A DNA stretch of 64,000 nucleotides from Rhabdothermincola sediminis (GTDB lineage Bacteria; Actinomycetota; Acidimicrobiia; Acidimicrobiales; Acidimicrobilacustridaceae). A program made the position numbers and the translations under genes. The stretch spans positions 62,001 through 126,000 of the forward strand of contig NZ_JACFSZ010000010.1 in NCBI RefSeq assembly GCF_014805525.1. The letters run 5' to 3'. The notes beneath the pieces were generated by a model that was given only the letters and a program-made list of their open reading frames with translations, ran no database searches and was not told the DNA's origin. Positions 43,719 to 52,015 of the stretch are shown piece after piece; the first letter of the stretch is position 1, and each line of letters starts with the position of its first letter.

Positions 43719-43772
43719 CCCGATGGTCTGCGGAGGTCTCCTGGCGCCGAGCTGCCAGTAGTGTCACCCGTC

Positions 43773-46118
43773 ATGACCGATGAGCTTCTCCGTCTCCCTC
43801 TCGGCGAGCTCATGCGTCGGGCCCGAGCGGTTCGCGATGCCACCACCGGGACCAGGCTCACCTACTCCCCGAAGGTGTTCATCCCCCTGACGATGCTCTG
43901 CCGCGACCGTTGCGGCTACTGCACGTTCGCGCAGCCTCCGGCACGGCTCGACCGGCCCTATCTCGATCCCGCGGAGGTTCTGCGCATCGCGCGGGCCGGG
44001 GCCCGGGTCGGCTGCCACGAGGCCCTGTTCACCCTCGGCGAGCGACCCGAGGAGCGCTATCCGGTGGCACGCGACTGGCTCCACCAGCACGGCTACGACT
44101 CGACCGTGGCGTACCTGGCGGCGATGTGCGAGCTGGTCGTGGAGGAGGTGGGGCTGCTCCCCCATGCCAACGCCGGGGCGCTGTTCCCCGATGAGCTGGC
44201 GCTGCTGCGGCGGGTCGCTCCCTCGCAGGGGATGATGATCGAGTCCCTCAACCCGTCGCTCACGTGCCATCGCGGGGCACCGGACAAAGATCCGCAGCGA
44301 CGCTTGGCGACCCTCGAGGCGGCCGGGGCGCTGGCCATCCCGTTCACGACGGGCATCCTCGTTGGCATCGGGGAATCGCGCTCGGACCGCCTCGTAGCCC
44401 TGCGAGCCATCGCCGATGCGCACCTCCGGCACGGTCACGTGCAGGAGGTGATCGTCCAGAACTTCCTGCCCAAGCCCGGCACCGCCATGCAGGCCGCGCC
44501 CGCCTGCCCCACGGAGGAGTACCTCGAGGCCATCGCCCTGGCCCGCCTCGTCCTGCCCCCCGACGTGCGGGTCCAGGCACCTCCCAACCTCTCCGACGAT
44601 CTCGGCGCCCTGATCGATGCCGGCATCGACGACTGGGGCGGGGTCTCGCCGGTCACCGCGGACCACGTCAACCCGGAGCGACCCTGGCCTGCGCTCGATC
44701 AGCTGCGCCGGGCCACCGAAGATCGTGGGTTCACCCTCGCGCCCCGCCTCACCGTGCACCCCCGCTTCGTGGCCGATCCCGAGCCGTGGTTGGACGAGCG
44801 GCTCCGGTTCGCGGTCCTCGACCGCTCCGACGCCGAAGGGCTCGCTCGCGACGATCCGGGCTCCCTCTACGTGCAACGCATCGCCCCCGCACAGCCTGAG
44901 CAGGTCGACGACGGGGTGGAGGTGGTGCACCTCGGCGAGCGCAGCACCGCCTGGTGCGCGGGCGCCAGCCTCGCTCCCCCGCTGCTCCTGCCCGGCGCCC
45001 CGGCGGCCCGTGGTGCCCTCGGCGAGGTCCTCGCCGGGGTGCTGCTCGGCCAGGAGGTCGGCGTCGAGGAGATCGTGACGTTGTTCTCAGCCCGAGGGCG
45101 CGAGGTGGTGGCGGTGGCCGAGGTCGCCGATCAGCTCAGGCAGGACGCCGTGGGCGAGACGGTGACGTTCGTGCGCAACCGGAACATCAACTACACGAAC
45201 GTGTGCACGTTCAAGTGCCGGTTCTGCGGCTTCTCCAAGGGACCCCTCTCCCTCAACCTCCGGGGGACGCCATACCTGCTCACCCTGGACGACATCGCGG
45301 CCCGGGCGGCCGAAGCCCAGGCACTCGGCGCGACCGAGATCTGCCTGCAGGGCGGCATCCACCCCGACTTCGACGGCGAGTACTACCTCGAGGTGACCAA
45401 GGCGGTGGCGGCTGCCGCCCCGGGGATCCACATCCACGGCTTCACCGCCCTCGAGGTCACCGAGGGGGCCCGGCGTCTCGGGGAGCCGCTGCCCGCCTAC
45501 CTGCGCCGCCTGAAGGAGGCCGGGTTGTGCACGCTCCCGGGAACCGCTGCAGAGATCCTCGACGACGAGATCCGGGACGTCATCTGCCCCGACAAGGTCA
45601 CCACGGACGAGTGGCTCGACGCCCACCGTGCGGCCCATGAGGTCGGCCTGCGCTCGAACGTGACGATCATGTTCGGCACGATCGAGAAGCCGCTGCACTG
45701 GGCGCGCCACCTGGTGCGAACCCGGGCTCTGCAACAGGAGACCGGTGGGTTCACCGAGTTCGTCCCCCTCCCGTTCGTCCACATGGCTGCCCCGCTCTAC
45801 CTGCAACGCCGGTCGCGGCGGGGGCCGACGTTCCGGGAGGCGCTGCTCATGCACGCCGTCGGCCGGATCGCCTACCGCGGAGCCATCGACAACGTGCAGG
45901 TCTCCTGGGTGAAGCTCGGTCCGGCCGGGGCGGCACAGGCGTTGCAGGCCGGCGCCAACGACCTGGGCGGCACGCTCATGAACGAGAACATCTCCCGCGC
46001 CGCCGGCGCGACGCACGGGCAGGGCATGGAGGAGGAGCAGTTCCGGGCCCTGGTGGAACCGCTGGGCCGCCCGCTGGAACCACGCACCACCGTGTACGGG
46101 CGCGTGGCGGTGGCCTGA
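43773..46118 (+). CDS. fbiC: bifunctional FO synthase FbiC (CofG-CofH fusion)
   Basis: 781 residues with two radical-SAM domains: the first has CRDRCGYC near residue 45 (CofG half) and the second CTFKCRFC near residue 475 (CofH half). GETVTFVRNRNINYTNVC and NENISRAAGATHGQ are CofH motifs. FbiC joins a pyrimidine from riboflavin synthesis with tyrosine to make FO, the deazaflavin core of cofactor F420. A GTG four codons upstream is an alternative start. It implies an F420-using organism. Confidence 0.96.
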   Translation: MTDELLRLPLGELMRRARAVRDATTGTRLTYSPKVFIPLTMLCRDRCGYCTFAQPPARLDRPYLDPAEVLRIARAGARVGCHEALFTLGERPEERYPVARDWLHQHGYDSTVAYLAAMCELVVEEVGLLPHANAGALFPDELALLRRVAPSQGMMIESLNPSLTCHRGAPDKDPQRRLATLEAAGALAIPFTTGILVGIGESRSDRLVALRAIADAHLRHGHVQEVIVQNFLPKPGTAMQAAPACPTEEYLEAIALARLVLPPDVRVQAPPNLSDDLGALIDAGIDDWGGVSPVTADHVNPERPWPALDQLRRATEDRGFTLAPRLTVHPRFVADPEPWLDERLRFAVLDRSDAEGLARDDPGSLYVQRIAPAQPEQVDDGVEVVHLGERSTAWCAGASLAPPLLLPGAPAARGALGEVLAGVLLGQEVGVEEIVTLFSARGREVVAVAEVADQLRQDAVGETVTFVRNRNINYTNVCTFKCRFCGFSKGPLSLNLRGTPYLLTLDDIAARAAEAQALGATEICLQGGIHPDFDGEYYLEVTKAVAAAAPGIHIHGFTALEVTEGARRLGEPLPAYLRRLKEAGLCTLPGTAAEILDDEIRDVICPDKVTTDEWLDAHRAAHEVGLRSNVTIMFGTIEKPLHWARHLVRTRALQQETGGFTEFVPLPFVHMAAPLYLQRRSRRGPTFREALLMHAVGRIAYRGAIDNVQVSWVKLGPAGAAQALQAGANDLGGTLMNENISRAAGATHGQGMEEEQFRALVEPLGRPLEPRTTVYGRVAVA

Positions 46119-46119
46119 G

Positions 46120-47163
46120 GTGGCACGACGCGCCCCCTACCGCACCGGTGACCCCTCGCTCGACGCACGCATCGCGGAGCTGCTCGAGGAGGCGGGGATC
46201 AGCCGCGACGAAGACCTGGTGTTCGAGATGCTGGTGTCGGCCCTGCGCATCGGCCGGGAATCGGCCAGCCGCGGCGACCTCAAGCTGGTGAATGCCGCGC
46301 TCAAGGAGCTGCGGTATTCCTTTCTCGTCTTCGAACCGTATGCCTCGGTCCCCAAGGTGTCGATCTTCGGCTCGGCCCGCATCCGCAGGGATGACCCGGC
46401 TTACGAGGTGGCCATGCGGTTCGGCCGTCAGATGGCCGAACAGGACTGGATGGTCATCACCGGAGCCGGGCCGGGGATCATGGAGGCCGGCATCGAGGGC
46501 GCGGGGGCCGAGCGGGCATTCGGCGTGAACATCCTGCTGCCTTTCGAGAACGAGCCGACCGCCCTGCTCGCCGGGGATCCCAAGCTCATCAACTACCGGT
46601 ACTTCTTCACGCGCAAGCTCACCTTCATGAAGGAGTCGAAGGCGTTCGCGCTGCTCCCCGGTGGTTTCGGCACCCTGGACGAGGCGTTCGAGTTGCTCAC
46701 CCTCATGCAGACGGGACGCTCGCCCATCTGCCCCGTGGTGCTGATCGCCCCCGAGGGTTCGACCTACTGGCAGACGTGGCTGCAGTTCATCGAGAACGAG
46801 CTACTGGGCCCCAGAGCGCTGATCGGCCCGGACGATCTCTGCCTGGTCCGGGTGTGCAGCACCGTCGAGGATGCGGTGGCGGAGATCACCCACTTCTACT
46901 CCCGCTACCACTCGATGCGGGTCGTGGGACGCCGGCTGGTGGTGCGGCTCAGGACACCGGTCGACGAGCGTGAGCTGGCCGAGCTCAACGAGCAGTTCGC
47001 CGACATCGTGGTCTCGGGGAAGATCGAAGCCGTCGAGGCCTCACCCGCCGAACGGGAGGATGGCGACGTCCCGGACCTGCCACGGATCGCCTTCCAGTTC
47101 AACCGGGTCAACTATGCGCGCCTCCGGCGGCTGATCGATGCGCTCAACGGCCCGCGTAGCTGA
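46120..47163 (+). CDS. LOG-family Rossmann-fold protein (nucleoside-5'-monophosphate phosphoribohydrolase-like)
   Basis: 347 residues from a GTG one base after the fbiC stop. The LOG core (about 80-260) has VSIFGSARI, VITGAGPGIMEAGIEGA and the PGGFGTLDE motif that binds the nucleotide phosphoribosyl group. It also has an N-terminal helical extension and a C-terminal region of about 80 residues, making it longer than plant-type LOGs. Nucleotide turnover rather than cytokinin synthesis is likely. Confidence 0.88.
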   Translation: MARRAPYRTGDPSLDARIAELLEEAGISRDEDLVFEMLVSALRIGRESASRGDLKLVNAALKELRYSFLVFEPYASVPKVSIFGSARIRRDDPAYEVAMRFGRQMAEQDWMVITGAGPGIMEAGIEGAGAERAFGVNILLPFENEPTALLAGDPKLINYRYFFTRKLTFMKESKAFALLPGGFGTLDEAFELLTLMQTGRSPICPVVLIAPEGSTYWQTWLQFIENELLGPRALIGPDDLCLVRVCSTVEDAVAEITHFYSRYHSMRVVGRRLVVRLRTPVDERELAELNEQFADIVVSGKIEAVEASPAEREDGDVPDLPRIAFQFNRVNYARLRRLIDALNGPRS

Positions 47164-47459: not shown

Positions 47460-48182
47460 ATGAGCACCCGAGACATCCACGAATGGTTGTCGTTCGAGTA
47501 CGCCGGCGAGACGTACCTGTTCGACCTGACCTTCCTGGGGAGCTCCTGGTCGTGCATCTACGGCCGGGGGTGCCCGGGCATCGACGAGGCCCCGGCACCC
47601 CAGCTGAGCCTCGGTTGCTGCTCGCACGGCGCCTACTTCACGGACAAGGCCGACCGAAAGCGCACCAAGCAGCTCATCGCCGCGCTGGGGGAGGACGAAT
47701 GGCAGTACAAGGCGGTCGCGGAGGAGCTCGGCGGGGCGATCTACAAGAACGAGGAGGGGGACTGGGTCACACGGGTCGTGGACGGTGCGTGCATCATGCA
47801 GAACCGGGTGGGCTTCGAGGGCGGGGCCGGTTGTGCGCTGCACCTCGCGGCCGTGAACCGGGGCGAACGCTTCATCGACTGGAAGCCCACCGTGTGCTGG
47901 CAAGCTCCCCTCCGCCTCGATTACCACGTCGACGACAACGACCACCTGACGAAGATCCTGCGCGAATGGAAGCGCCGGGACTGGGGCGAGGGAGGCTTCG
48001 ACTTCCACTGGTGGTGCACCGACGACCCACTCGCGTTCACCGGCCGCGAGCCCGTCTACGTCACTCTCCGGGACGAGATCATCGAGATGGTCGGCGAGGA
48101 GCCCTACGCCCGACTGGCCGAGCATCTCGAGCGGCAGGAAGACCGCCTGCTCCCGCATCCAGCACTCAAGAAGCGAGCCTGA
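47460..48182 (+). CDS. Cys-rich protein, possible YkgJ/DUF3109-like metal-binding protein
   Basis: 240 residues from an ATG at 47460. Cysteines cluster in SCIYGRGCPG, LGCCSHGAYF, GACIMQNR, GCALH and TVCWQ, which together suggest bound iron-sulfur or zinc. The pattern recalls YkgJ/DUF3109-type putative Fe-S proteins. Two genes follow in the same direction with gaps of 19 and 10 bases (an McrB-like ATPase and an unknown protein), so the three probably form one operon. Function is unknown. Confidence 0.7.
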   Translation: MSTRDIHEWLSFEYAGETYLFDLTFLGSSWSCIYGRGCPGIDEAPAPQLSLGCCSHGAYFTDKADRKRTKQLIAALGEDEWQYKAVAEELGGAIYKNEEGDWVTRVVDGACIMQNRVGFEGGAGCALHLAAVNRGERFIDWKPTVCWQAPLRLDYHVDDNDHLTKILREWKRRDWGEGGFDFHWWCTDDPLAFTGREPVYVTLRDEIIEMVGEEPYARLAEHLERQEDRLLPHPALKKRA

Positions 48183-48201
48183 CCGCCGACAGGTGACGAG
48201 C

Positions 48202-49137
48202 ATGCACCAATTCACGTCTGAGGAGCTCGAGCGGGCCGCCGAGGAGGCGGGGATGATCTTCCCCCCCTACGTGCTCGACCAGTTGGTCGCGGCGATCGAC
48301 GCCGGCAAGCACGTGATCCTCACGGGGCCCCCGGGGACCGGCAAGACCACCCTGGCGTACCTGGCCGCCGACGTGGCCCGCCGAGCCATGTTCTGCACTG
48401 GCTACCTGCCCACCACAGCCACCAGTGAATGGACGACCTTCGAGACCATCGGTGGCCTGCAGCCCACGCCGGACGGGTTGATCTACCGGCCCGGGTTGTT
48501 CGTGGAGGCCATCGAGAGCGGCCGGTGGCTCGTGATCGACGAGCTCAACCGGTCGAACTTCGACCGGGCATTCGGTCAGCTCTTCACCGTGCTGTCCGGT
48601 TCGGCCGTGGTGCTGCCCTTCAAGCGCAAGGGCCAACCCGATCCGATCTCCCTCGTGCCCTCAGGCGAGGAGCCACCGGAGAAGACCGATGTGATCCGGG
48701 TCCCGGCCAACTGGCGGATCATCGCCACGATGAACGTGTTCGACAAGAACCTGCTGTTCGACATGAGCTACGCGCTCATGCGCCGGTTCGCGTTCATCGA
48801 GGTGGGCACCCCCGACGACCAGGCGTACGAGAAGCTGCTGGCCGGCCCTGGCGAGATCGTGACCAAGCTCCTGCCCCTGCGTCGTTTCCAGGACCTCGGT
48901 CCCGCCGTGTACCTCGACGCCGCCAAGTACGCGGCCCGCCGCGCCAAGGACGGCCCGACCGAGTCGCGACTCATCTACGAGGTCTTCTACGCGTACTTCC
49001 TCCCTCAGTTCGAGGGCATGGAGGACCGCCGGGCCACGACCCTGTACCGCACGGTCGCGCAGCACATGGATCCACCCGAGCAGGCCGAGGTCCAACGCAC
49101 GATCGGTGAGGTCCTCGGGGTCGAGCTGGCAGTCTGA
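48202..49137 (+). CDS. McrB-like AAA+ ATPase
   Basis: 311 residues from an ATG at 48202, with AGG eight bases upstream; a GTG at 48193 is possible. Walker A GPPGTGKT (42-49), Walker B VIDELNR (111-117) and sensor ATMNVFDKN (175-183) with LMRRF are the marks of the McrB/MoxR-like AAA+ clade. McrB proteins are motor subunits of type IV restriction systems, but similar proteins serve other roles. It lies between a Cys-rich protein and a protein with a possible DUF2357-like motif. Confidence 0.85.
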   Translation: MHQFTSEELERAAEEAGMIFPPYVLDQLVAAIDAGKHVILTGPPGTGKTTLAYLAADVARRAMFCTGYLPTTATSEWTTFETIGGLQPTPDGLIYRPGLFVEAIESGRWLVIDELNRSNFDRAFGQLFTVLSGSAVVLPFKRKGQPDPISLVPSGEEPPEKTDVIRVPANWRIIATMNVFDKNLLFDMSYALMRRFAFIEVGTPDDQAYEKLLAGPGEIVTKLLPLRRFQDLGPAVYLDAAKYAARRAKDGPTESRLIYEVFYAYFLPQFEGMEDRRATTLYRTVAQHMDPPEQAEVQRTIGEVLGVELAV

Positions 49138-49147
49138 TCGCGATCCG

Positions 49148-50179
49148 ATGGCGCCACCGGTCGAGATCGAGCCCACGAGCCCGGTGGTCGACGACCCCGT
49201 CGCCGGAGCCTTCGACCGGCTCTGGGAGCGCCTGGCCCGTCCCTTCGAGGTGGTGGGGACGGTCGCGGCGCTGGTCGGGCTCTCCCCCGCGGTCGTGGCA
49301 CAGCTCGTGGGGGTGGTCGTGGCCACCTCCGAGGAGGCCGAGCATCTACTCGATCAGTTCCCGGTGACGGTTCGGTCGCTGGCGACCTCCATCCACACCA
49401 ACGCGGAGCGCTGCATCGGGCAGTTGCGCGGCCCGGTCCTGTGGAGCGAGACCATGTCTGCCCGGGCCTCGAGCTTCGGCGACCCGGACCTGTTCGTGTG
49501 CTCGGCCCCCTCCCGCGCGTACGACATCGATGAGAACCAGGTCCTCGTGGCCGCGCTGGTCGAGGTTCGCGAAGCGGCGAAGTACGCGAGTGAGAGCGTC
49601 GGCGATCGCGGAGCTGACGATCCCCTCATCCGAGCCGCCCGACGGAACGGGCAGGATGCCTCCCGGTTCATCGAACATCCCTCGTTGCAGCGGGTGAGCC
49701 GCAGCCGCCCCAGGGCGCGAGCATTGAAGCGCACCCGGTCGGGCAAGCATCGCAAGACGTACGGGCCCGCGCTGGCCATGCTGGACCGGGCCATGAACCC
49801 CCTCGGCCGCGACGACGTGCGCACCTGGTGCGACGAGCGCACGCGGATGCAGCACTACGCGCTGATGGGCCTGGTGGACCGGCTGGAGCGCGGGGGTCGC
49901 CGGTTGCCCGACTTCCGGGCCGAGCGTGGCGCGCTCTACGCGGGCCCGGTCCAGTACTACCACCCCCGCGGCCTCGGGGCGAGCGGGCAGCTCTCCGGCA
50001 TCGTCGTCGGTCAACTCCTCGTCGACGTCCCGATGCGCCTGCACGACCCTGATCGAGATCGGGCCGAGGCCCAGCTCAAGGCCCGGGCCGGAGGTCGCCG
50101 ATCGATGGTCATCATGGAAGAGGACGACCTCGATCGAGCGATCGAGGTCGCCATCGACCTGGCCCGCCGGGGCCGCTGA
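49148..50179 (+). CDS. possible DUF2357/McrC-like partner of the McrB-like ATPase
   Basis: 343 residues from the ATG at 49148, ten bases after the ATPase stop. Residues 92-140 (LRGPVLWSETMSAR, then SRAYDIDENQVLVAAL) resemble the GRIDW.RT ... DTPENRFL pattern of DUF2357/McrC-type proteins. No PD-(D/E)xK nuclease motif is evident downstream; the C-terminus is charged and helical. The name is inference from motif and neighbour. If the match is wrong, it is a protein of unknown function. Confidence 0.55.
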   Translation: MAPPVEIEPTSPVVDDPVAGAFDRLWERLARPFEVVGTVAALVGLSPAVVAQLVGVVVATSEEAEHLLDQFPVTVRSLATSIHTNAERCIGQLRGPVLWSETMSARASSFGDPDLFVCSAPSRAYDIDENQVLVAALVEVREAAKYASESVGDRGADDPLIRAARRNGQDASRFIEHPSLQRVSRSRPRARALKRTRSGKHRKTYGPALAMLDRAMNPLGRDDVRTWCDERTRMQHYALMGLVDRLERGGRRLPDFRAERGALYAGPVQYYHPRGLGASGQLSGIVVGQLLVDVPMRLHDPDRDRAEAQLKARAGGRRSMVIMEEDDLDRAIEVAIDLARRGR

Positions 50180-50191
50180 GCCCCCGAGCGG

Positions 50192-52015
<1,824 letters not shown>

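Follow-up and report, generated by a model that had tools for sequence, protein, structure and literature searches.

Whether a McrB-like ATPase encoded beside a McrC-like partner must belong to a restriction system, or whether a cell may keep such a pair for other work, is the question raised by three genes (A, B and C) in a 64,000-nucleotide stretch of the Rhabdothermincola sediminis genome, hereafter the window. On balance, we favour the reading that A-B-C is an operon formed around a domesticated McrBC machine that does not cut and that serves a function other than defence. A sequence-only reading had described the genes as a tightly spaced unit on one strand, and this was confirmed: all three lie on the + strand (47460-50179; Table 1), intergenic gaps are about 10 bp, and the reading frames show codon-position G+C of the coding type. 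An alternative start for C is the GTG at 49106. The genes were seen again in 25 named genome contigs as well as in genomes across the order, and this recurrence indicates that neither they nor their motifs are products of chance.

Table 1. Coordinates of the A-B-C locus and its flanks in the window
Feature	Position	Strand	Description
LOG-family gene	46120..47163		flank, upstream of A
Gene A	47460..48182	+	240-aa cysteine-rich probable metalloprotein, DUF3109-like below cut-off
Gene B	48193..49137	+	314-aa McrB-type AAA+ NTPase without N-terminal DNA-reading domain
Gene C	49148..50179	+	343-aa McrC homologue; McrC N-terminal/finger part retained, approximately residues 50-220
C-terminal domain of C (residues 222-343)	49811..50176	+	probable decayed PD-(D/E)XK domain, catalytic motif absent
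bipA	50192..51937		flank, convergent

Gene B encodes an AAA+ domain in which Walker A is preceded by some 40 residues, compared to more than 300 in its plasmid relatives, and the DNA-reading domain that is fused to McrB is absent. The Walker B (DELNR) and sensor (TMN) motifs from which a McrB-like identity had been proposed are present, and that identity was upheld by a B profile that reached E. coli McrB at E 7e-20. Midasin, in which two stretches of a protein of several AAA modules were matched, outscored McrB in this comparison. Across 20 aligned rows, Walker A, Walker B (D116-E117-x-N119-R120), N181xxD184, and R197-R198 are all invariant; two successive arginines are a feature of the McrB family (PMC10602043). 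B evolves slowly and is the only strong match within its own genome. Diverged B-like AAA+ genes without C in the sequence available were also found in two other loci (L167:3777-4643 and L168:5956-7152; 57% and 51% identity), and these are possibly orphan motors.

Gene C is unnamed by Pfam, NCBIfam, PADLOC, and PHROGs, and a PDB sequence search with it returned nothing meaningful. The sequence-only reading had noted a WSET...YDIDEN pattern, which is present, and had suggested a DUF2357- or McrC-like protein without a clear nuclease motif. The Pfam models of both families gave no match to C. PF10117 found nothing in the window's own genome, and a PF04411 search there carries no information, since its controls also stayed silent. 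The suggestion was borne out by structure and by other profiles. Foldseek comparison of an AlphaFold2 model of C, made from 13 relatives (mean pLDDT 85.8), against the PDB singled out four McrC chains, the sole matches with a probability of 1.00 (best E 2.1e-4). With VIA-align, Z was 10.7 for McrC chain 6ut6_G (231 residues; rmsd 12.5, which we ascribe to different domain placement) and 10.6 for McrC chain 6hz4_M (138 residues; rmsd 3.6); the first unrelated row reached only Z 6.2.

Sequence evidence for a McrC-type protein is independent of these structural matches. A tblastn search with C over 7.3 Gb of plasmids returned five records (best E 1e-4), and in the four that were inspected (Priestia, Haladaptatus, Halorarius, and Halobacterium) the match falls on the gene immediately following an AAA+ gene, itself matched by B. 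A profile of C aligned to the partners of McrB-like ATPases on plasmids at E 1.3e-15 (probability 98.6, residues 32-246), and a reverse search of 198 genomes of the phylum with the Priestia partner had the window's C as its only match (E 3e-8). C thus does show the similarity to McrC on which the earlier idea depended, and we regard the homology of B-C to McrBC as close to certain. In an alignment of 35 C proteins, G95, P96, W99, T102, C118, R123, and N130 are invariant. C retains the finger-bearing part of McrC and, in the region aligned there, a basic cluster (R195-T-R197-x-G-K200-x-R202). McrB is activated when a finger of McrC enters the ring and brings Lys157 (E. coli) or Arg263 (Thermococcus gammatolerans) to an active site (PMC7680126). 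We do not assign an exact equivalent of these GTPase-stimulating residues in C, as a residue-by-residue alignment was not achieved.

The nuclease centre of C, in turn, is missing. In E. coli McrC the nuclease residues are Asp244, Asp257, and Lys259 (PMC6624300), and PD...ExK is invariant in all nine plasmid partners of McrB-like ATPases. Scanning the last 40% of each protein for the pattern D-x(6-35)-(D/E)xK recovered all nine intact partners and none of the 35 C proteins, among which no conserved lysine occurs. D293 is invariant wherever the C-terminal domain is retained (25 C proteins), mostly within D-V-P; five relatives (L035, L037, L160, L161, and L165) terminate before or within it. When this domain was modelled alone (pLDDT 91), Foldseek gave no significant match, and VIA placed nucleases in five of its first six rows at low scores (Z 5.1 to 4.3). 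These rows (three VRR_NUC, Can1, and I-Bth0305I) are ones that we take to belong to the PD-(D/E)XK group. The absence of the motif is an observation, and the fold is our interpretation, to which the domain alone contributes low-scoring matches: it is probably a decayed PD-(D/E)XK domain. Because the domain resisted residue-by-residue alignment with McrC or the intact partners, we do not assign the lost catalytic residues one by one. It is very probable that C is not a nuclease.

Taken with the kept motor motifs, the McrC match, and the absence of both nuclease motif and reader, this identifies B-C as the motor and activator of a McrBC system without a reader or a working nuclease. As in the McrBC type IV restriction systems of E. 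coli and T. gammatolerans, an AAA+ motor with NxxD and RR adjoins a McrC-type partner of the same N-terminal/finger architecture. Unlike in those systems, B carries no DNA-reading domain, C has no nuclease motif, the context is core metabolic, and a cysteine-rich neighbour is conserved.

That neighbour, gene A, has the cysteine pattern previously noted in it. In 25 diverse relatives, C32, C38, C53, C54, C111, C125, C146, C186, and H128 are invariant. A scores 23.7 bits against the Pfam family DUF3109, below the gathering cut-off of 33.5, and 10 of the 25 relatives match that family at E <= 0.1 (best 1.6e-7); a PDB sequence search with A gave nothing meaningful, and we found no mention of DUF3109 in the open-access papers searched. 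FliB likewise has eight conserved cysteines, and its CX4CX3CC binds a [4Fe-4S] cluster (PMC8598068). This parallel, used solely for plausibility and not as kinship, makes it plausible that A holds a metal or Fe-S site.

In 36 of the 37 loci where the upstream region could be judged, A lies directly upstream of B-C in the same orientation, with a median A-B gap of 31.5 bp (<=104 bp in 34 of the 36). The sole exception, L163, has B-C without an adjacent A and only a diverged A elsewhere in its genome. Further upstream, the LOG-family gene is a frequent operon neighbour at looser spacing. Genes apparently split by frame shifts were seen for A in L158 (5932-6643) and for B in L169 (6270-7238), which appear to be assembly errors or decay. 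A is also found on its own: 60 of 296 Actinomycetota genomes carry it, mostly without B-C, and in several Acidimicrobiia it adjoins bipA without them. The proposal that A stands in place of a nuclease was not supported, as it is an independent gene, and we reject A as a replacement nuclease since it is widespread by itself. What surrounds A in two large, distant genomes offered no usable clue. Four Acidimicrobiia loci (L101, L102, L104, and L108) carry a second, paralogous A without B-C, forming a well-supported clade of its own.

The distribution of B-C is patchy. Within the order, C was found in 20 of 258 genomes, so the pair is not among its core genes, and B is matched at E <= 1e-30 in 22 of the 258, including all 20 carriers of C. 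C directly follows B in each of these 20 genomes, as it does wherever both occur. The named contigs bearing the genes come from MAGs, and their labels are Acidimicrobiales, Acidimicrobiia, Microthrixaceae, or actinobacteria; a single one carries the label Acidobacteria, which is probably wrong. On the A tree, the presence of B-C costs 5 changes versus 24.7 with shuffled labels, and well-supported branches force at least 3 changes; many groupings of the A tree are shared by the B tree. These counts, the B tree, and the constant site fit one old acquisition followed by several losses, and B-C seems to be vertically inherited with repeated losses inside Acidimicrobiia; spread by transfer together with A may be an alternative.

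The sequence-only reading had raised a defence-related or a housekeeping role for the unit and had named a core distribution with unrelated neighbours as part of what would count against its idea. The neighbours proved to be housekeeping genes, among them transketolase, transaldolase, a 6-phosphogluconolactonase-type protein, LOG, BipA, alpha-amylase, an RNase D-like protein, GT87, and pyruvate kinase, with a large protein at 43761-46118 that looks like a fused FO synthase. No match was found in 50,697 phage records or in a pattern scan of viral contigs. On these two grounds, core metabolic neighbours and the lack of phage or viral matches, the locus is not a defence island, context gives a defence role no support, and we reject a mobile defence module. 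A different form of the defence explanation, in which B-C is still directed against phages with a McrC nuclease that is dead as in type II/III CoCoNuTs, and with A as the effector or a non-nucleolytic block, draws on the McrBC ancestry and patchy presence of the pair as well as on the existence of CoCoNuTs with inactivated McrC nucleases (PMC11090510). There, too, McrC homologues with an inactivated PD-(D/E)XK domain, as reported for the known cases, stand next to a McrB-type NTPase. In CoCoNuTs, however, the signature motif is NxD and is accompanied by coiled coils and by HEPN or other nucleases; the motif of B-C is NxxD, and it has no such companions. No HEPN or other nuclease was seen among the genes scanned next to B-C in the window, the RNase D-like gene lying about 4 kb away and outside the operon. 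The absent reader, the metabolic neighbours, the constant site, the slow evolution of B, and the occurrence of A without B-C further argue against this explanation, which we consider unlikely.

In the domesticated, non-cutting machine that we favour, B would act as an AAA+ motor, a McrB minus its DNA-reading domain, and C as a McrC-type activator whose finger would enter the B ring and stimulate NTP hydrolysis. With C presumably unable to cut nucleic acid, the pair may spend this hydrolysis on pulling or remodelling a partner rather than on DNA cleavage. The likeliest client or co-worker would be A, a probable metalloprotein rich in cysteine, and its presence in the operon makes a role in remodelling or metal insertion attractive though unproven. 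A need not be the client, because it mostly occurs without B-C in actinobacteria and L163 has B-C without an adjacent A; that it is one is a tentative suggestion. A very similar finger-in-ring arrangement is seen in NorQ-NorD, a pair that inserts iron into the protein it targets (PMC13036017). Together with other MoxR-VWA chaperones, this pair offers a functional analogy (AAA+ ring, partner finger in the pore, and metalloprotein target), though the partner in that line carries a VWA domain and here is McrC-type; no VWA domain was matched in A or C. That B-C is a chaperone or metal-insertion enzyme for A, a McrBC-derived counterpart of NorQD separate from the MoxR-VWA line, is a narrower and somewhat more doubtful version of the same suggestion.

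Dead McrC nucleases are already known from CoCoNuTs (PMC11090510), as is a McrB co-opted without McrC, PcdA of Staphylococcus aureus (PMC10602043). In the open-access literature, we found no description of a McrB-McrC pair lacking both reader and nuclease in a conserved operon with a cysteine-rich protein. A-B-C is a naturally stripped McrBC, in which motor and activator are strongly conserved and cutter and reader are gone from a stable chromosomal operon, and it makes testable what the motor does on its own. Domestication of this kind would be a second one for McrB besides that of PcdA, with the McrC partner retained. PcdA is likewise a McrB-family protein recruited to a cellular function, and it lends some precedent to the explanation that B-C works on the cytoskeleton or cell division; yet PcdA carries EVE domains, its Walker motifs are degraded, and it lacks a McrC-type partner, whereas B-C retains motor and activator and no division gene lies nearby, making this explanation quite improbable. 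Least probable is that C still works as a nuclease with an unusual active site, as its confident alpha/beta domain resembling PD-(D/E)XK folds and the single invariant Asp might suggest, against the missing motif and lysine and the relatives that stop before or inside the domain.

The plasmid pairs of Priestia and haloarchaea (L109:4062-7229, L110, and L180-L184) are the closest outside relatives found for C (profile E 1e-15) and for B (approximately 36% identity). They differ from B-C in the long reader region on the ATPase, in the intact PD...ExK of the partner, and in being plasmid-borne near methylases and restriction genes. Because neither Pfam nor PADLOC gives a usable match to the PD-(D/E)XK partner, these reader-AAA+ and partner pairs look like under-annotated restriction systems of the McrBC type.
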